Source: Fibrobacterales bacterium Fibro_02 (GTDB lineage Bacteria > Fibrobacterota > Fibrobacteria > Fibrobacterales > Fibrobacteraceae). From it: 64,000 bases of DNA. A model generated the notes under the pieces. It did not search any database. It saw nothing but the letters and a program-made list of their open reading frames with translations, and was not told the origin of the DNA. Position 1 is the stretch's first letter; each line of letters starts with the position of its first letter. The translations under genes were made by a program, and so were the position numbers. This document shows, piece after piece, positions 2,115-28,532 of this stretch. The stretch lies in assembly GCA_001603905.1 (NCBI GenBank), contig LVAE01000015.1, forward strand, positions 1-64,000. The letters are read 5' to 3'.

Positions 2115-5100
2115 ATGAGTGTCGCTACCCTTTCCGTACGTCGCCCGGTGCTCATGACCGTGATGGCGCTCGTCATCATCTTGCTTGGCGCCTTTGGCGC
2201 GTCGAACTTGGGCGTGCGCGAATATCCGAACGTGGACTATCCGCTGATTCAGGTGCGTACTTCGTACCCGGGTGCAAACGCTGCCGTGGTCGAAGCCGAA
2301 GTGACCGAAATCCTGGAAGCTTCTATCAACAGTGCGTCCGGTATCAAGGCGTTGACCTCGACCAGCCGCGATGGTTACTCCTTTATCAATATTGAATTTG
2401 AAACAGGCATGGACCTGGAAGCAGCCGCCAACGAAATCCGCGACCGCGTGAGCCGCGTGCGCCGCAGGCTCCCGGACGATGTCGATGAACCGACGGTGTA
2501 CAAGTCCGACAGCGATAACGACCCGATTCTAATGGTGAGTCTCGTGAGCGATCGGCTTGACCCGATGGAAGTTTCGGAACTCGCGAACAACTTTGTCAAG
2601 GAACGTCTGCAGACCATCAACGGTGTTTCCGAAGTGGCTATCTGGGGTGAAAAGCGACCGACGGTGCGCTTGTGGATTGATCCGGTGCGCTTGCAGGCGC
2701 TAGGCGTTTCGGGTGCCGAAATGTCGGCTGCTCTCAAGAAGGGCAACCTGGAACTTCCTTCCGGTTCCATCGAAGGAAGCGAAACGACACTTTCCATCCG
2801 TACGCTCGGACGAATCCTTGACCCGAAGGCTTTCGAAAATATTGCGGTAAAAACTGCTGCCGACGGTACCGTGATTCGCATTTCCGATGTCGCGGACATC
2901 CATTATGAACCGAAGGATACGCGTACGGGCTTTAGACGCAACGGCAAGAATTCCATTACGCTTGCACTGATGGCGCAGCCCGGTTCCAACCACGTGGAAA
3001 TTGCAGACGAATTCTACAAGCGCGTCGAAGATATCCGCCGTGAAATTCCTGAAGGAGTTGATGTTCTTTATGGTCGCGATACTTCGGTGAATATCCGCGC
3101 CTCCATTCGAGAAGTGGTGGAGACAATCTTTATTGCGTTCCTTTTGGTGATTGCCATTATCTTTGCGTTCCTGCGCGAAGGTCGTACGACGCTTATCCCG
3201 ATGGTGGTGGTGCCGGTGTCTGTCATCGGTAGCTTCTTTGTACTTTACCTTTGCGGTTTCTCGATTAATGTGCTGACGCTTTTGGCGATGGTGCTTGCCA
3301 TTGGCCTTGTGGTAGATGATGCCATTGTGATTGTCGAAAACATTTACCATAAGATTGAACGCGGCATGACGCCCAAACAGGCTGCTGTTGCGGGAACGAA
3401 TGAAATCTTTTTTGCGGTGATTGCGACCTCGGTTGTGCTGATGGCCGTGTTTGTCCCGGTGCTTGCTTTGGGTGGCACGACGGGGCTTCTGTTCCGTGAA
3501 TTTGTTGCGGTGATGATCGGTACCGTGTTCCTTTCTACGTTGTGTGCCTTGACACTTTCGCCGATGCTTTGTTCCAAGTTCTTGAGAAAGCAAAAGCAGG
3601 GCTGGTTCTTCCGCGTCACGGAGCCGTTCTTCGATTGGCTGAACCGTATTTACTCTGTGTTGCTCGGAGGATTCCTTAGACTGAGAATTCTCCTGTTCCC
3701 GGTGGTGGCGGGGCTTTTGGTGGCTGCCTATTTCTGCTTCAATAACATGAGTAGCGAAATGGCTCCGACCGAAGATTCCAATGCGGTCATGGTGAACTTG
3801 AACATGCCCGAAGGTGTCACGCTTACTCGCACCAAGCGCATGGCCGACGCCTTTGCCGAAGAAGTGATTGCGCTCATGGATAGCAACGAATATTCCGAAA
3901 TCCAGGCGGGTGCTTGGAATGCGGGCAATTCCAGAATGCGCATTACGCTGAATGACGACAAAAAGGCTCGTCGGCCGCAGAGTGAAATCGCGCATGCCAT
4001 TCAGATTCTCGGAAACGAATATCCCGACTTGCGCGTGATGGTGTTCGAACCGCAGAGTATCAGTACGCAGCGCGGCGGACTCCCGGTGCAGTTTGTGCTG
4101 CAGGCTCCGAATATCGAAATTCTGCGAACCCTTGTGCCCAAGTTCGAAGAAGAAGCGAGCAAGAGCCCTGTGTTTAGCGTGGTGAATAGCAACTTGCGCT
4201 TTACCAAGCCGGAACTTCATATTGAAATTCTGCGTGACAAGGCGAACGAAGAAGGAGTGTCGGTGAACGATATCGCCCAGGCGGTGCAGCTTGCGATTAG
4301 TGACCAGAGTTATGGTGAATTCTACAAGGACGGTCGCCAGTACGATATTATCGGTGCGGTTGGTTATCAGTACCGCAGCATGCCCGAAAACATTTCGATG
4401 CTTACGGTCAAGAACGACAAGGGCGAGCTTGTGAGCCTCGATAACTTTATCACTTATAGCGAGCAGTCGGCATCGCCGTCGCTGCCGCGTTATAACCGAT
4501 TCAGTGCCGCGACGATTCAGGCGGGCCTTGTTCCCGGCAAGACGATTGGCGACGGCGTCGAAGAAATGCGCCGCATCGCGAAGCATTTGCTGAAGGATTA
4601 TCCGAATGTCAGTACGGCGCTGAGCGGATCTTCTAAGGAATTCGAGGAAAGCTCCAGCGGTCTTTACATTGTGTTCCTGCTGGCTTTGGCGCTTGTGTTC
4701 CTGGTGCTTGCGGGGCAGTTCGAAAGCTTCCGTGCGCCGTTCGTGATTTTCTTTACGGTGCCGCTTGCCTTGGCAGGTGCTTTGACTTGCTTGTTCCTTA
4801 CGGGACAGACGCTGAATATCTTCAGTGAAATTGCGCTAATTCTGCTGATTGCGCTTGTGACGAAGAACGGTATTCTGATTGTGGAATTTGCGAACCAGAT
4901 TGCGGCGAGTACCGGCTGCAGCAAGCTTGAGGCGGCTCGGCAGGCGGCGGAACGCCGCTTCCGCCCAATCCTCATGACGAGCCTTTCGACGGTATTGGGC
5001 GCGGTGCCGCTCATTCTGACCGGCACCCCGAGCCGCATTGCGATGGGTATCGCTATCGCCGGTGGACTCACCTTCGCGACGTTCATGACTCTCTTTATTG

Positions 5101-5180
5101 TGCCTGCCGCTTACAGCTTCTTTGCGGGTAAGGTCAGGCTTGACGCCATGAAGAGCACTGACGCTTCAAAAATGGCTTAA
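2115..5180 (+). CDS. RND family efflux pump, inner-membrane permease (AcrB/MexB-like)
   Basis: 1021 residues, the usual length for an HAE-type proton-driven exporter. TM1 is at residues ~12-32 and is followed by the periplasmic porter signature (VREYPNVDYPLIQVRTSYPGA). The TM4 motif GLVVDDAIVIVENI carries the two aspartates of the proton relay, and TM10 carries the matching lysine (LVTKNGILIVEFANQ). The C-terminal half repeats the porter/TM arrangement. The start ATG follows a GGAG purine run and lies 7 bases after the adaptor stop. It should expel toxic compounds with the adaptor and an unlinked outer-membrane channel. Sub-family and substrate cannot be told by eye. Confidence 0.93.
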   Translation: MSVATLSVRRPVLMTVMALVIILLGAFGASNLGVREYPNVDYPLIQVRTSYPGANAAVVEAEVTEILEASINSASGIKALTSTSRDGYSFINIEFETGMDLEAAANEIRDRVSRVRRRLPDDVDEPTVYKSDSDNDPILMVSLVSDRLDPMEVSELANNFVKERLQTINGVSEVAIWGEKRPTVRLWIDPVRLQALGVSGAEMSAALKKGNLELPSGSIEGSETTLSIRTLGRILDPKAFENIAVKTAADGTVIRISDVADIHYEPKDTRTGFRRNGKNSITLALMAQPGSNHVEIADEFYKRVEDIRREIPEGVDVLYGRDTSVNIRASIREVVETIFIAFLLVIAIIFAFLREGRTTLIPMVVVPVSVIGSFFVLYLCGFSINVLTLLAMVLAIGLVVDDAIVIVENIYHKIERGMTPKQAAVAGTNEIFFAVIATSVVLMAVFVPVLALGGTTGLLFREFVAVMIGTVFLSTLCALTLSPMLCSKFLRKQKQGWFFRVTEPFFDWLNRIYSVLLGGFLRLRILLFPVVAGLLVAAYFCFNNMSSEMAPTEDSNAVMVNLNMPEGVTLTRTKRMADAFAEEVIALMDSNEYSEIQAGAWNAGNSRMRITLNDDKKARRPQSEIAHAIQILGNEYPDLRVMVFEPQSISTQRGGLPVQFVLQAPNIEILRTLVPKFEEEASKSPVFSVVNSNLRFTKPELHIEILRDKANEEGVSVNDIAQAVQLAISDQSYGEFYKDGRQYDIIGAVGYQYRSMPENISMLTVKNDKGELVSLDNFITYSEQSASPSLPRYNRFSAATIQAGLVPGKTIGDGVEEMRRIAKHLLKDYPNVSTALSGSSKEFEESSSGLYIVFLLALALVFLVLAGQFESFRAPFVIFFTVPLALAGALTCLFLTGQTLNIFSEIALILLIALVTKNGILIVEFANQIAASTGCSKLEAARQAAERRFRPILMTSLSTVLGAVPLILTGTPSRIAMGIAIAGGLTFATFMTLFIVPAAYSFFAGKVRLDAMKSTDASKMA

Positions 5181-5181
5181 G

Positions 5182-5346
5182 CTATTTCTTTTTTTCGGAT
5201 TTTTCTGATTTAGAGGAGTTGTTGGCGGACTCGCTGAAGGGGAATACGAATCGTCCGCGCAGAACGCATCCGGGGGCGCCCGGGTCGCATTCTTTTTTGC
5301 GTTTGTTGCAGAAGGTATTCCGCAAATGTCTGCATTCGTAGCTCAT
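5182..5346 (-). CDS. Small cysteine-rich protein, 54 residues
   Basis: A short complete frame in the gap between the pump and malQ. The first half has four regularly placed cysteines (YEC, TFC, KEC, PGC) with the stretch CDPGAPGCVLRGRF. The second half is a Ser/Lys/Glu tail (SKSEKSEKKK). The Cys spacing suggests a small metal-binding or disulfide-stabilised protein. I recall small conserved bacterial proteins with a similar CxPG-GCVLxG ending but cannot name the family. There is no signal peptide. No Shine-Dalgarno is visible; the A/T-rich leader faces malQ divergently. Composition and Cys pattern favour a real gene. Confidence 0.55.
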   Translation of the reverse strand: MSYECRHLRNTFCNKRKKECDPGAPGCVLRGRFVFPFSESANNSSKSEKSEKKK

Positions 5347-5448
5347 AATTTTAATTTAATAAAATTATAACAAAATATAAAAAGAAAACAGAAAGAAGTT
5401 CACTTTTCTCGGTTTACGGATGCTTACGCACTTTGTTAAATTTGCAGC

Positions 5449-7422
5449 ATGCGATATGGTGACATTTCTTATTTTCAAAGTGGCGTAGCCGTTCCTCTCT
5501 TTAGCCTCTATAGCAAGCAGAGTATCGGCATCGGTGAGTTCCTGGATTTGATTCCGTTTGCCCGTTGGGCAAAGTTCTGCGATTTCAATATCATCCAGCT
5601 GTTGCCGGTAAATGACACTGGGGCGGAATCTAGCCCGTACAGTGCCCGTAGTGCTTTTGCATTGAATCCGGTGTTCATCAATGTACAGACGGTCGAAGGC
5701 TCTGCAGATGTCGAAGATGAGATTCGCACGGCGAAGCACGAATTTGACAAGTTGGGAAAGATTGACTATTACCATATCTCTTCTTGGAAGCGTTTTGTTC
5801 TCCGCAAGATCTTTGATAATCGTTATAGCGAACTCAAAAAGGACAAGCTGCTCCAGCGCTGGATTGACGATAATCCGTGGTCAAAGCCTTATTGCGTCTA
5901 TTGTACTCTGAAGGCGATGAACGGCGAAGCCAGCTGGAAGGATTGGCCCGAATTCCGCGATCCGTCGGCCAAGGATATCGAAAAGCTTTGGAAAAAGTTC
6001 GAGAAGGATAACCTGTTCCAGGCCTGGATGCAGTTCGAAGCCGAAAAGCAGTTCAGCGCCGTGATTGAAGAGATTTCGAAGATGGGCCTCCGCCTGAAGG
6101 GCGACATTCCCATTTTGATTAACGAAGATAGCGCCGATGTATGGGCGGACCGCAAGTACTTCTCTCTGGATGATCGTGCGGGTGCTCCTCCTGATATGTT
6201 CAGCTACAGCGGCCAGAACTGGGGCTTCCCGACTTACCGCTGGGATGTTATCGAGAAGGATGATTTTGCATGGTGGCGTAGCCGCCTCGCGCAGGCCAGC
6301 AAGTTCTATCACGCCTATCGCATTGACCATGTGCTCGGTTTCTTCCGCATCTGGTCGATTCCGCAGAAAGAAGTCACTGGTATTCTGGGCTACTTCAATC
6401 CGTGCGTGCCGCTTACCTGGGAAAAGCTCAGCTCTGCAGGCTTTATCCGCGAAACGCTTGAATACCTGCGTCGTCCGAATTACGGTTACGACCAACTTCG
6501 TGAATTCTTGGGAAACGATACCGACCGTCTGGCTCCGGTATGCTTTACCCAGCTCGAAGGTCACCCAGACCGCCTTATCCTGAAGCCGGAATACTCTTCC
6601 GAAAAGGCAATACTTGGAATGAACGAGCCGCAGGAAGTCAAGGACAAACTGCTGAAGGTTTATTGGAACCGCGTATTTGTTCCGTCGGGCGACGAAAATA
6701 CGTTCTACCCGTACTGGTACTGGTACAATGCGCCGGTGCTCTTCACCTTGCCGGATTACGAACAGGAAAAGCTGCGTAACCTGATCAAGGAAAACGAAAA
6801 TTCCCAGAACGACTTGTGGGATGCAAATGCGACGAAGCTTTTGACGGTGCTTTCGCAGGAAACCGATATGTTGGTCTGCGCCGAAGACCTCGGTGCCGTG
6901 CCGCCGTGCGTTCCCTCTGTGCTGCATAAGCTGAACATTCTCTCGCTGCGCATTGAACGTTGGGCCCGCAACTGGAATGCTCCGTATTCTCCGTATTACG
7001 AAATGGGCGAATACCCGCGCATGTCCGTGTGCGCTACGAGCTGCCACGATTCCTCGACGCTCCGTGGACTTTGGTACGAAAAGGATTTCGACCGCGATCT
7101 GTACTGGTCTCATGCCCATTTGCCGGGCAAGGCTCCCGAAGAAATTACCCCGTCTGTCGTGCGTCAGATTTTGACTCATGTGTATTCGGCAAACAGCTTG
7201 TTCTGCATTCTGCCGTTGCAGGATTACCTGGCGCTGTCGGCAAGCCTTTCCAAGGGGGCTCCGGAATCGGAACGCGTGAATGTCCCGGGAACGGTGGGCG
7301 GTTCTAACTGGTGCTATCGTATGCCTTGCTCGGTGGACGAACTGATGGATTACACATCGCTTAGCTCCGATATCCGCATGCTCGTGGATGTCCGCAAGCG
7401 CCGCCCCATGTGGAAAATCTAG
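5449..7422 (+). CDS. malQ: 4-alpha-glucanotransferase (amylomaltase, GH77)
   Basis: 657 residues. The enzyme transfers alpha-1,4-glucan segments between maltodextrins. GH77 signatures: IQLLPVNDTG near the N-terminus, the nucleophile region YRIDHVLGFFRIW, the acid/base region CAEDLG and the third acid in CHDSSTLRGLW. The insertion after the nucleophile (GYFNPCVPLTWEKL onward, ~150 residues) makes it longer than short amylomaltases and like the plant DPE2/Bacteroides type, but without N-terminal starch-binding modules. The amylase gene follows after one base, so they form an operon for maltodextrin or glycogen turnover. The start has no Shine-Dalgarno; TTAAATT lies 6 bases before the ATG, possibly a leaderless promoter. 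Confidence 0.93.
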   Translation: MRYGDISYFQSGVAVPLFSLYSKQSIGIGEFLDLIPFARWAKFCDFNIIQLLPVNDTGAESSPYSARSAFALNPVFINVQTVEGSADVEDEIRTAKHEFDKLGKIDYYHISSWKRFVLRKIFDNRYSELKKDKLLQRWIDDNPWSKPYCVYCTLKAMNGEASWKDWPEFRDPSAKDIEKLWKKFEKDNLFQAWMQFEAEKQFSAVIEEISKMGLRLKGDIPILINEDSADVWADRKYFSLDDRAGAPPDMFSYSGQNWGFPTYRWDVIEKDDFAWWRSRLAQASKFYHAYRIDHVLGFFRIWSIPQKEVTGILGYFNPCVPLTWEKLSSAGFIRETLEYLRRPNYGYDQLREFLGNDTDRLAPVCFTQLEGHPDRLILKPEYSSEKAILGMNEPQEVKDKLLKVYWNRVFVPSGDENTFYPYWYWYNAPVLFTLPDYEQEKLRNLIKENENSQNDLWDANATKLLTVLSQETDMLVCAEDLGAVPPCVPSVLHKLNILSLRIERWARNWNAPYSPYYEMGEYPRMSVCATSCHDSSTLRGLWYEKDFDRDLYWSHAHLPGKAPEEITPSVVRQILTHVYSANSLFCILPLQDYLALSASLSKGAPESERVNVPGTVGGSNWCYRMPCSVDELMDYTSLSSDIRMLVDVRKRRPMWKI

Positions 7423-25424: not shown

Positions 25425-25444
25425 GCCCCTGTCGGGGCTTTTTT
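25425..25444 (+). terminator. Rho-independent terminator
   Basis: GCCCC-TGTC-GGGGC followed by six T, 52 bases after the hydrolase-like gene stop. Confidence 0.8.
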
Positions 25445-25490
25445 GCTATATTGAAATTAATTGTAAGTATATTGTGAGGTCCTTGTAACG

Positions 25491-26324
25491 ATGAAACAAA
25501 AATGGGTGCTGGGGGCACTGATTGCATTTTTCGTTTGCTTCACGGGATGTGGGAAGTCCGACACCCCGGAAAATCGTGTCTTTGCAATTAAGGATTTAGC
25601 GAATAAGAAGGTTGGTGTGCTGGAGGCAAGCACCGCTGAGGTATATGCTGCAGATTTTGGTGGTGATACGGCGAAGATCCTGGTGGAAAAGTATCCTACC
25701 TTGGAAGAGGCCGTTCAGGCGCTTCGTCGTGGCGACGTGGATGCCGTTCTGGGTGACGATGCTCCTGCTTCTGTCTTTGAAGGCAAATATCAGTCCCTGC
25801 GCATTCTTGATGAAGTCTTTATGGAAGAATCGTATGCGGGAATTGTCGCCAAGAAGAATTGGGGACTCCTCGATACGGTGAACATGGCCCTTATCCAAAT
25901 GCGGACGATGGGCGTCTATGATTCTATTTTCGGGTCGTATATTGGCGGTTCGGGCGATTACCATTTTAAGCCGGATTCTGCGAGCGGTCCTGTATTGAGA
26001 ATTGCGACCAATGCCGAGTTCCCGCCGTACGAGTTCAGAACCGAAAATGGTCCCCAGGGAATAGATATAGAGATTGCGCGTTACATCGCGGATTTTATGG
26101 AACGTCCGCTTGAAATTGTCGATATCGATTTTGACGAAATCATTGCTGCGGTGGATTCTGGAAAGGCCGATATCGGTCTTGCGGCACTTTCAGTCACCGA
26201 AGAACGCGAACGGATCGTGAATTTCACGGATCATTACGCGAAGTCAAAGATTGTGGTGATGGTGCGTAGCGGCGAAGAAGAGTCTACCTTCCAGCGCATC
26301 AAGGATACCCTGTTCGGTGACTAA
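25491..26324 (+). CDS. Circularly permuted SBP_bac_3-type solute-binding lipoprotein
   Basis: 277 residues; lipoprotein signal with Cys20 (CFTGCGKS). Parts of an amino-acid-binding protein (GlnH/HisJ family) occur in swapped order. Residues ~30-148 match the normal C-terminal half (IKDLANKKVGVLEASTAEVY, EAVQALRRGDVDAVLGDD, MRTMGVYDSIFGSYI). Residues ~162-265 match the normal N-terminal half (LRIATNAEFPPYEF, GIDIEIARYIADF, GKADIGLAALSVTEERE, VNFTDHYAKSKIVVMV). Ligand residues (TEERER arginine, DAVLGDD aspartate) are kept. The frame ends cleanly and no extra half lies outside it. No ABC permease or ATPase genes are near. It could bind an amino acid or act as a sensor. Confidence 0.85.
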   Translation: MKQKWVLGALIAFFVCFTGCGKSDTPENRVFAIKDLANKKVGVLEASTAEVYAADFGGDTAKILVEKYPTLEEAVQALRRGDVDAVLGDDAPASVFEGKYQSLRILDEVFMEESYAGIVAKKNWGLLDTVNMALIQMRTMGVYDSIFGSYIGGSGDYHFKPDSASGPVLRIATNAEFPPYEFRTENGPQGIDIEIARYIADFMERPLEIVDIDFDEIIAAVDSGKADIGLAALSVTEERERIVNFTDHYAKSKIVVMVRSGEEESTFQRIKDTLFGD

Positions 26325-27238
26325 CTGAAGTTTCCGTGGTAATTCCAGCTCCACTGTTCGGGGTGCTCGGAAATCCACGATTCAATTTCTTTTGCGATAC
26401 TTGAGACGAGTGCACTGTGCTCGTCTTTTTGCAATTTGTGGTCCACGTGCGTTTTGTCGAATTGAGGCGGATAGTATTTTTCGAAGCGAATCACGATGCG
26501 CTTTTGGGGGGCGTATTCGGTCCATGTGCGGAAGAGGACGATGCCTGCACCCATCTCGTTCACCTTTTGCGGAAGGCGTAGGTACAGTGTACTCTTTTGT
26601 CCGAAGAGTTCGACGGAGTTGCCCTTGGTGTTCTTGCCTTGGTCGAATACCATCGCGAGAATTCCTTTGGTGTGGAACAGGTCACGGAGAAGTTTTCCTG
26701 TTTCTTCGGGGTGGTATTCGGTGAGGTGCGGGGCGCTGCGGAGATCCTTGAGGACTTCGCGGAAGGCTTCGTCGCCAACGGAATCGGTAATCAGGTGCAC
26801 GTGTTCGCTGTAGCGGCAAAGAGCCCGATGCAGCAGCTCAAATGCGCCTTGATGGATGCTGATGCCAGCAATGGGCTTGCCGTTCTTGGCGCATTCCGCG
26901 ATTGCATCACGGATGATTTCTTCGTTCTCGTAGACGATCCTGCTTTCGACACTTTTGAAGCGGGCGAGTCCACGGTACGAATCCAACGCGTTCCAGAAGA
27001 TTCCCTTGAAAACGTCGCGGGCCGTAGTGCTTATTTTCAAATAGGCCTTCGCATTTTTGAGGTGCTTTACCGTGCGGCCGTAAGCTCGCTTGGTGTGGAG
27101 TGCCTTGTAGACTGGAAAAGCAACCGCAAAAAGTGCCGAATAGAAAACATCCGGCACTCTCAACAAAACGTTCAGCAGAATCTTGTATGTCTTACTCTTC
27201 GTCAAATTCCAGAATGTTTCTGCCGAGTTCACGTTCAA
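26321..27238 (-). CDS. Lipid A biosynthesis (LpxL/HtrB-like) acyltransferase family protein
   Basis: 305 residues. An N-terminal hydrophobic anchor (VFYSALFAVAFPVY) is followed by the catalytic HxxxxE motif (SIHQGAFELLH), a second conserved block (AMVFDQGKNTKG) and the family ending HPEQWSWNYHGNF. Relatives add acyl chains to lipid A precursors on the inner-membrane face; the exact acceptor is unknown. The start is uncertain: no ATG fits, and TTG or GTG codons at 27238/27232 lie inside the end of the UDP-sugar pyrophosphorylase gene, so translational coupling is likely. Its stop overlaps that of the converging binding protein. Confidence 0.8.
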   Translation of the reverse strand: MNVNSAETFWNLTKSKTYKILLNVLLRVPDVFYSALFAVAFPVYKALHTKRAYGRTVKHLKNAKAYLKISTTARDVFKGIFWNALDSYRGLARFKSVESRIVYENEEIIRDAIAECAKNGKPIAGISIHQGAFELLHRALCRYSEHVHLITDSVGDEAFREVLKDLRSAPHLTEYHPEETGKLLRDLFHTKGILAMVFDQGKNTKGNSVELFGQKSTLYLRLPQKVNEMGAGIVLFRTWTEYAPQKRIVIRFEKYYPPQFDKTHVDHKLQKDEHSALVSSIAKEIESWISEHPEQWSWNYHGNFS

Positions 27239-28532
27239 ACACGCGGCGGCTGAGTCCTTCGCCGGCGTAGCTCAACGTGGGCGACACTTCGTACAGTTTG
27301 TTCGGGGTCACTTCGACGTGGGCCTTGCGCAACCATTCGCGGTGAAGGCGGCCAATCATGGTACGAGCGGTCTTCGGGCTGTCGTTTCCTTCGGCGTTCT
27401 TCACGGGCGAAAATTCTTCTTCGCGGACCACGCCGAACGGCATCATCGTGCCCAGTTGCGGGAAGGCGTCAAACAGGAACTGTTCGAACTTCCAGCATTT
27501 TTCGATGCCGCAAACGGTCTTACGGGCAGTGTGCCACGGGAGCTTGCTTGTCTGCAACTTGCGCAGGCCCTCAAGCTTGAACAGGTGAATGGCGATGTTG
27601 CCACCGTCGAATGTGAGGCTTCCGTCGGCGTTTGTCATGTCGCGGTAGTTTTCGGGAAGGTCGCTGTATTCGACGACGCCGGGCTTGCCGTTCTGCAAGG
27701 CGAAGATGCCCACTTTTTCGTTGGGTCCCGCCTTGTGTACCACCTTGGATGCCGACATGCTGCGACCTTCGCTCGCGAGAGCACCGATGAAGGCGGGGTC
27801 GCAAATGCGGCAGAGTGCGTTATCGACGCTATAAAGGAATACGTAGCGCACGCCCTTTTCAATCAACCAGGCGAGGGTTCCGCTCTGGGCGAGCGCGCGG
27901 AAGCAGCCGCCGTTTCCATCGGGAACGAGTGCCAAACGGTTGTTTTCGTCTACGACGGCCTTTCCGTTCGGGTCGAGCGCGCAAATGGTGCCCTGTTCAA
28001 AGAATCGAATGTTTTCGCGGGCGTAACCGAAAAAGTTGTGTTCGGTAAAGAAGTTGACCGTTGCTTCGTGGTTCAGCGGACTCGTCATGATGCACCACGG
28101 AATGGGGTGGCCGACTTGTGCGGCCAGGTTCTGCAAGCGTTCCGCCTGCAACTGGAACAGGCTCTTGTGGCTCGGAAGACCGATATCGAACATGCCCTTC
28201 GGACCATCGAAACCGAGGCGGGAACCTTGACCGCCTGCAACCAAGAATGCGGCCACCTGACCCTTGCCGAGAAGAATTTCTCCTGTTTCTTTCCAGAAGT
28301 CGTAACGCAAGTCGTCGGTTGCAATCTTGAACGGCATAGGCTTCAAGTCGCCCGACACGTTGTCGTCGAGCGAGGCGTTCGATTTTTCGGTGTAAAGAGC
28401 CTTGAGTTCTTCCCAGTCCTGGCTAGCAATGTCGCGTTCCAGATTCTTGCGGGCATCCCCGCTCAAAGATTCAAGCTTGGCGACCAGCTCTTGCTGCCCC
28501 GCCGCATTCAAAGTTTCGATAATGTCGTTCAT
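27192..28532 (-). CDS. UDP-N-acetylglucosamine/UDP-sugar pyrophosphorylase (UAP1/UDPGP type)
   Basis: 446 residues. The eukaryote-like UDPGP family signature is clear: LVAGGQGSRLGFDGPKGMFD near residue 98, then PIPWCIMTSPLNHEAT, VPDGNGGCFRAL and the uridine/metal region VFLYSVDNALCRICDP. It makes a UDP-sugar, probably UDP-GlcNAc or a related hexosamine, from UTP and sugar-1-phosphate, unlike the bacterial GlmU. The lipid A-type acyltransferase gene overlaps its 3' end, suggesting envelope precursor supply. No Shine-Dalgarno; CTATATT lies exactly 7 bases before the ATG. Confidence 0.88.
   Translation of the reverse strand: MNDIIETLNAAGQQELVAKLESLSGDARKNLERDIASQDWEELKALYTEKSNASLDDNVSGDLKPMPFKIATDDLRYDFWKETGEILLGKGQVAAFLVAGGQGSRLGFDGPKGMFDIGLPSHKSLFQLQAERLQNLAAQVGHPIPWCIMTSPLNHEATVNFFTEHNFFGYARENIRFFEQGTICALDPNGKAVVDENNRLALVPDGNGGCFRALAQSGTLAWLIEKGVRYVFLYSVDNALCRICDPAFIGALASEGRSMSASKVVHKAGPNEKVGIFALQNGKPGVVEYSDLPENYRDMTNADGSLTFDGGNIAIHLFKLEGLRKLQTSKLPWHTARKTVCGIEKCWKFEQFLFDAFPQLGTMMPFGVVREEEFSPVKNAEGNDSPKTARTMIGRLHREWLRKAHVEVTPNKLYEVSPTLSYAGEGLSRRVFERELGRNILEFDEE

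Follow-up and report, generated by a model that had tools for sequence, protein, structure and literature searches.

A free-standing, circularly permuted SBP_bac_3 lipoprotein in Fibrobacterales and its permuted relatives in gut bacteria

Sequence comparison of the protein encoded at positions 25491-26324 (plus strand) of the window, the 64,000-nucleotide stretch of DNA that was analysed, revealed one whole amino-acid-binding protein in which each half was present once and the order of the halves was swapped. The best PDB sequence match was AncQR (4zv1), and phmmer aligned residues 168-263 of the query with AncQR residues 11-107 and residues 30-152 with AncQR residues 109-232 (i-Evalues 3.3e-17 and 2.5e-14). 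Normal SBP_bac_3 proteins run from lobe 1 through lobe 2 and back to lobe 1, with the first half (h1) before the second (h2), whereas h2 preceded h1 in the window protein. The Pfam model of the family (PF00497) matched in two stretches (E 1.6e-28; 99.6 bits against a gathering cut-off of 26.4). TIGR01096 and GlnH, which are ready-made NCBIfam models not built for the present analysis, likewise gave two stretches on this protein and one on the normal-order relative L183. The Pfam and NCBIfam models used name the family and stay silent on chain order. In a profile search of the PDB (E up to 1e-10), only the tandem protein 6h30 spanned both halves in one stretch among the 60 of 98 matches listed. 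At E values up to 1, the Pfam matches were SBP_bac_3, Lig_chan-Glu_bd, and LysR_substrate only; none was to a type I (sugar) SBP family or to OpuAC, for which the match was structural only. The circular permutation itself is near certain, and the initial annotation, which had described the SBP_bac_3 halves as reversed, was correct in this respect. An assembly error or a frameshift fusing two truncated genes, which that annotation had named as the possible refutation, was rejected and has a negligible probability. The same order was found in many independent assemblies, including those of the isolates Roseburia inulinivorans DSM 16841 and Hespellia stercorisuis DSM 15480, and the orthologues kept both the order and the synteny. 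When the whole genome was searched with PF00497, the contig of the window gave one match, and no stray half or second copy of h1 or h2 was found near the gene.

The gene encoded 277 amino acids from an ATG to a TAA codon. The lipoprotein signal peptide (25491-25550) ended at the lipobox FTGC, identified by eye, with Cys20 as the likely lipidated residue, in agreement with the good start, lipoprotein signal, and clean stop noted initially. The h2 segment (residues 30-152; 25578-25946) contained Thr48 and Asp89 and presumably comprises lobe 2, one hinge strand (predicted at residues 111-120), and the C-terminal helices of lobe 1, following the topology of GlnH. The former C-terminus was joined to the former N-terminus by a linker (residues 153-166; 25947-25988). 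The h1 segment (residues 167-261; 25989-26273) contained Thr173-Asn174, Phe177, Phe214, Thr236, and Arg239, and ended in the other hinge strand, predicted at residues 250-259. The chain stopped 16 residues past h1, after a C-terminal tail (26274-26321) that ended in STFQRIKDTLFGD and was predicted with lower confidence to be helical, and the permease domain was absent. All of these features were on the plus strand.

The structure prediction suggested in the initial annotation gave a confident fold. The AlphaFold2 model of residues 20-277, calculated with 60 relatives kept of 72 candidates after the removal of near-copies, had a mean pLDDT of 92.1 and a pTM of 0.81. Both long hinge strands were present in the model, and the confidence dropped over the last 18 residues (block means 66 and 73). 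The location of the cut at a hinge strand was assumed from the topology of GlnH. A cut at this place would leave each lobe as one unbroken stretch of chain, with a single covalent crossing between them. Since one hinge crossing is cut, the lobes of two chains could also pair with each other in a partner-swapped dimer, and swapped elements were reported for permuted constructs of a ribose-binding protein (PMC10601554). However, AlphaFold2 was confident on the monomer, which was the form modelled, and the swapped dimer is considered improbable. The top structural match of the model was OpuAC (2b4m; Z 12.1, rmsd 4.5, 202 aligned residues), and normal amino-acid SBPs aligned with a Z of about 10 (Foldseek, VIA; alignments taken as sequential), which is probably due to the pseudo-symmetry of the lobes if the alignments are indeed sequential.

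Residues Thr48, Asp89, Thr173, Asn174, Phe177, Phe214, Thr236, and Arg239 were unchanged in all 61 aligned permuted sequences, an alignment that left aside the paralogues L026 and L027, so the ligand-binding signatures recognised at first were indeed retained. Arg239 and Asp89, whose positions were assigned through the AncQR alignment, are assumed to bind the alpha-carboxylate and alpha-amino groups of the amino acid, with roles as in GlnH. The position of Asn174, which we take to be equivalent to Asp10 of GlnH, was occupied by Cys in L026 and Tyr in L027, and that of Thr236 by Ser in L026. The change at the Asn174 position suggests that these two paralogues may bind a different ligand.

The window gene would thus encode an amino-acid receptor of the GlnH/HisJ (SBP_bac_3) family that is anchored to the membrane in the periplasm. 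A break in its chain at one hinge strand would put lobe 2 ahead of lobe 1 and leave the other hinge strand ending close to the C-terminus. Such a receptor would close on its amino acid as ordinary Venus-flytrap proteins do, with one covalent crossing between the lobes. The ancestor would have been a permuted receptor fused to a permease, a form retained elsewhere in the genome, and the permease would then have been lost. The free-standing receptor would pass its ligand, as an additional receptor, to the fused transporter with its GlnQ-like ATPase. We infer the hinge geometry, the loss of the permease, the binding of an amino acid, and the delivery to the fused transporter, and we assign a probability of about 0.6 to this role as an accessory amino-acid receptor that serves the fused transporter encoded in the same genome. 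A candidate for this transporter was found on contig C91, which carried a 499-aa h2-h1-permease fusion (SBP_bac_3 and BPD_transp_1) followed by a 248-aa GlnQ-like ABC ATPase. Contig C14 contained a 278-aa paralogue of the window gene, and a third relative of 785 aa, from a divergent subfamily, had the order h2-h1-h2-h1-permease, with only 19 bits for its first h2.

The two genes flanking the window gene were unrelated to it: the upstream one gave a weak, below-cut-off match to Abhydrolase_6, and the downstream one matched Lip_A_acyltrans, so the initial statement that no ABC partner is adjacent held. A hairpin with a T run resembling an intrinsic terminator (25425-25445, plus strand) lay between the upstream hydrolase-like gene and the window gene; by pattern match only, the region had five such sites against 1.2 expected. 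Downstream, the LpxL-like gene and the UAP gene (27192-28532 in the window, presumably a UDP-sugar pyrophosphorylase) were present in 17 of the 18 loci examined, which correspond to 11 distinct genomes once apparently duplicate records are dropped; the exception was the paralogue L027.

Within Fibrobacterota, close free-standing permuted copies occurred in 13 of 167 genomes, all in the genus of the window, single-copy permuted permease fusions in 35, and fusions with two permuted copies in 10; these are hand counts based on the span of the match and the length of the frame, and only part of the copies were classified by half-profiles. Twelve of the 13 genomes with a close free-standing copy also listed a single-copy fusion, with G107 (81% complete) as the exception; common descent confounds this co-occurrence. 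In a tree rooted on six chosen outgroup sequences, all of them fused, the 11 close free-standing sequences formed one clade (100/100) beside 15 fused sequences within Fibrobacteraceae (96/99). In a larger tree, the nearest sequences from outside Fibrobacter were fused proteins of the Succinivibrionaceae type (support 95). Because the free-standing clade lies beside fused forms and its nearest outside relatives are fused as well, its ancestor was probably fused and the permease was lost; this loss rests on parsimony since the branching order of the Fibrobacteraceae groups was not resolved in the tree. By eye, the tail of the window protein, STFQRIKDTLFGD, sits where the fused proteins enter the permease linker, and some clostridial free-standing copies, such as L071 and L073, stop at the hinge strand; the tail may be a remnant of that linker. 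Free-standing forms are not restricted to the clade of the window gene, since all seven weaker matches fetched from genus g22 of another Fibrobacterota family (L194-L200, six genomes) were divergent free-standing receptors with the order h2-h1. One of the g22 loci, L198, had a separate permease gene directly behind the permuted receptor. In the Fibrobacter fusions L010-L012, the two permuted SBP copies were almost identical to each other, which implies a recent duplication or gene conversion.

The free-standing clade stood on a long branch (0.61), and its function may have shifted. The long branch and the lack of an attached permease would also fit a decaying, functionless remnant of a permease fusion. 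Against such decay, the dN/dS of the window gene was 0.063-0.140 in five of nine comparisons, in which dS was near saturation (1.75-3.16; the other four were saturated), and Cys20, Thr48, Asp89, and Arg239 were unchanged in all 13 aligned sequences, the window protein included. The conserved synteny and the retention of further paralogues also argue against decay, which makes a remnant very improbable.

A scan of genome contigs confirmed 313 stretches, of which the best 80 were kept; they lay in 79 loci, whose order and neighbours were determined with half-profiles. Among these best 80, permuted copies were found in Lachnospiraceae, Ruminococcus, Eubacterium, Oscillospiraceae, Succinivibrionaceae, and one Methanocorpusculum record, and outside Fibrobacter the permuted domain was both free and fused to a permease. 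By hand count among the same best 80 of 313, all 27 free-standing hinge-cut copies outside Fibrobacter had a permease directly downstream; an ATPase was present too in 26 of them, and the permease was itself a fusion in four. These neighbours bear on whether the window protein could act as a scavenger or sensor independently of any ABC transporter, for example by buffering an amino acid or relaying a signal. The initial annotation had offered a sensor role, which found no support: neither flanking gene is a sensor gene, the same genome encodes a related permuted transporter with its ATPase, and the free-standing copies elsewhere adjoin permeases as described. A scavenger or sensor would nevertheless agree with the long branch after the split from the fused forms, with the altered pocket residue in the paralogues L026 and L027, and with the finding that neither a permease (by profile) nor an ATPase (by motif) lay within 4 kb of the Fibrobacter copies L039-L043 or in the shorter flank of L038. 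It is regarded as unlikely, and the accessory receptor for the fused transporter is preferred.

Of the 299 genomes from the family to which Roseburia inulinivorans (L070) belongs, 63 had a best match with an E value of 1e-85 or better, or 62 by hand count when G366, a normal-order tandem array by its matches, is set aside. All 19 loci taken from this set (L155-L173) had the order h2-h1. At the class level, an E value of 1e-80 was reached in 12 of 391 genomes, and in the family of L091 an E value of 1e-60 was reached in nine of 56. The permuted receptors form a widespread group in gut bacteria, apparently not described before. The L103 locus, a permuted SBP-permease-ATPase operon, is on a contig that its record assigns to the archaeon Methanocorpusculum, which reflects either a transfer or a mis-binned contig.

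The window protein resembled GlnH/HisJ-type SBPs in both halves, in its signature residues, and in its family, and differed from them in the reversed halves and in the position of the new termini, at a hinge strand. The fused relatives of the window gene resemble the GlnPQ-type fusions with tandem SBDs (6h30) in having one or more SBPs ahead of a permease and an ATPase; in contrast, the SBP order is swapped in the fusions of Fibrobacter and in many of the clostridial ones, and the window gene has no permease. Circular permutation was reported for SBPs of other families. TpMglB-2 (Tp0684), termed "Type Ic", is a natural circular permutation of a type I glucose SBP and, like the window protein, a membrane-anchored permuted SBP; it keeps ligand binding and has a type I sugar fold with a fourth crossover, compared with fewer crossovers in the window protein (PMC4990184). 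Among type II SBPs, structural circular permutation was described for glycine-betaine and molybdate SBPs and CysB, including OpuAC/ProX, which the window protein resembles in this respect; that set has less than 24% identity and its SBPs bind betaines or molybdate (PMC2395249), whereas here members of a single family that share as much as 79.6% identity differ in order. No report of natural permutation in SBP_bac_3 proteins was found among the matches listed in a search of open-licence PMC papers, nor in passages of PMC9732360 and PMC10601554. Permuted SBPs of other families are already published, and permutation in SBP_bac_3 is apparently new as far as the literature search goes.

The permuted order was older than the window gene because it is common to the SBP-permease fusions of Fibrobacteraceae, Clostridia, and Succinivibrionaceae and to the g22 receptors; the initial proposal of a local tandem duplication that lost its outer halves was thus not borne out. 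As to the intermediates whose search was recommended at that time, unpermuted relatives and tandem arrays that may represent such intermediates were found in the wider family. In the Lachnospiraceae set, all 12 normal-order relatives fetched (L174-L185, picked for split matches) had a permease gene beside them. The closest pair of normal and permuted forms was L183 (912-1748; normal order) and L110 (3980-4819; the permuted receptor of Hespellia stercorisuis), with 79.6% identity over 206 residues and 83.8% identity between their permeases. This matched pair offers a natural test of whether closure, affinity, and transport of a type II SBP need both covalent hinge crossings.

A second permuted order (CP2), cut inside lobe 2, was found beside permease genes in L111, L112, L114-L116, and L186-L190, and also in L090 (447-1328), which belongs to a different SBP subfamily and adjoins its own permease and ATPase. 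The closest normal-order relative of the CP2 form was 68.3% identical, and the AlphaFold2 model of this form, from five sequences only, had a pLDDT of 60.1 and a pTM of 0.48. The ingroup tree contained 107 of the 171 units collected, after the removal of divergent subfamilies, of outgroups, and of sequences that 3-mer similarity marked as near-copies. The quick tree required three changes for the hinge-cut order (CP1), and the first FastTree likewise hinted at a repeated origin of CP1. A repeated origin is not claimed here, since the AU test did not reject a single clade (p 0.508), and the single-clade tree was slightly better. The two CP2 groups were on one side of a branch in the quick tree (support 89) and apart in FastTree. 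The permease tree gave eight changes in the order of the partner, four of them forced by starred branches; this sign of more order changes is only suggestive because of six long branches and because SBP and permease genes can re-pair. Tentatively, and with less than even odds, the order in this gut-bacterial receptor family may have changed repeatedly between the normal, hinge-cut, and lobe-2-cut forms; tandem arrays may have supplied the material for these changes, and in the permuted form the unconnected hinge strand may couple lobe closure directly to the fused permease.

Matched normal and permuted pairs allow the origin of circular permutations to be studied, perhaps through tandem arrays. 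Such arrays were found in normal order in L084, L094, L095, and L099, and in permuted order in L010-L012, L035, and L109. The L109 protein (2359-5625; 1089 aa) combined a permease with three permuted SBP units, of which the first and third scored below the middle one.
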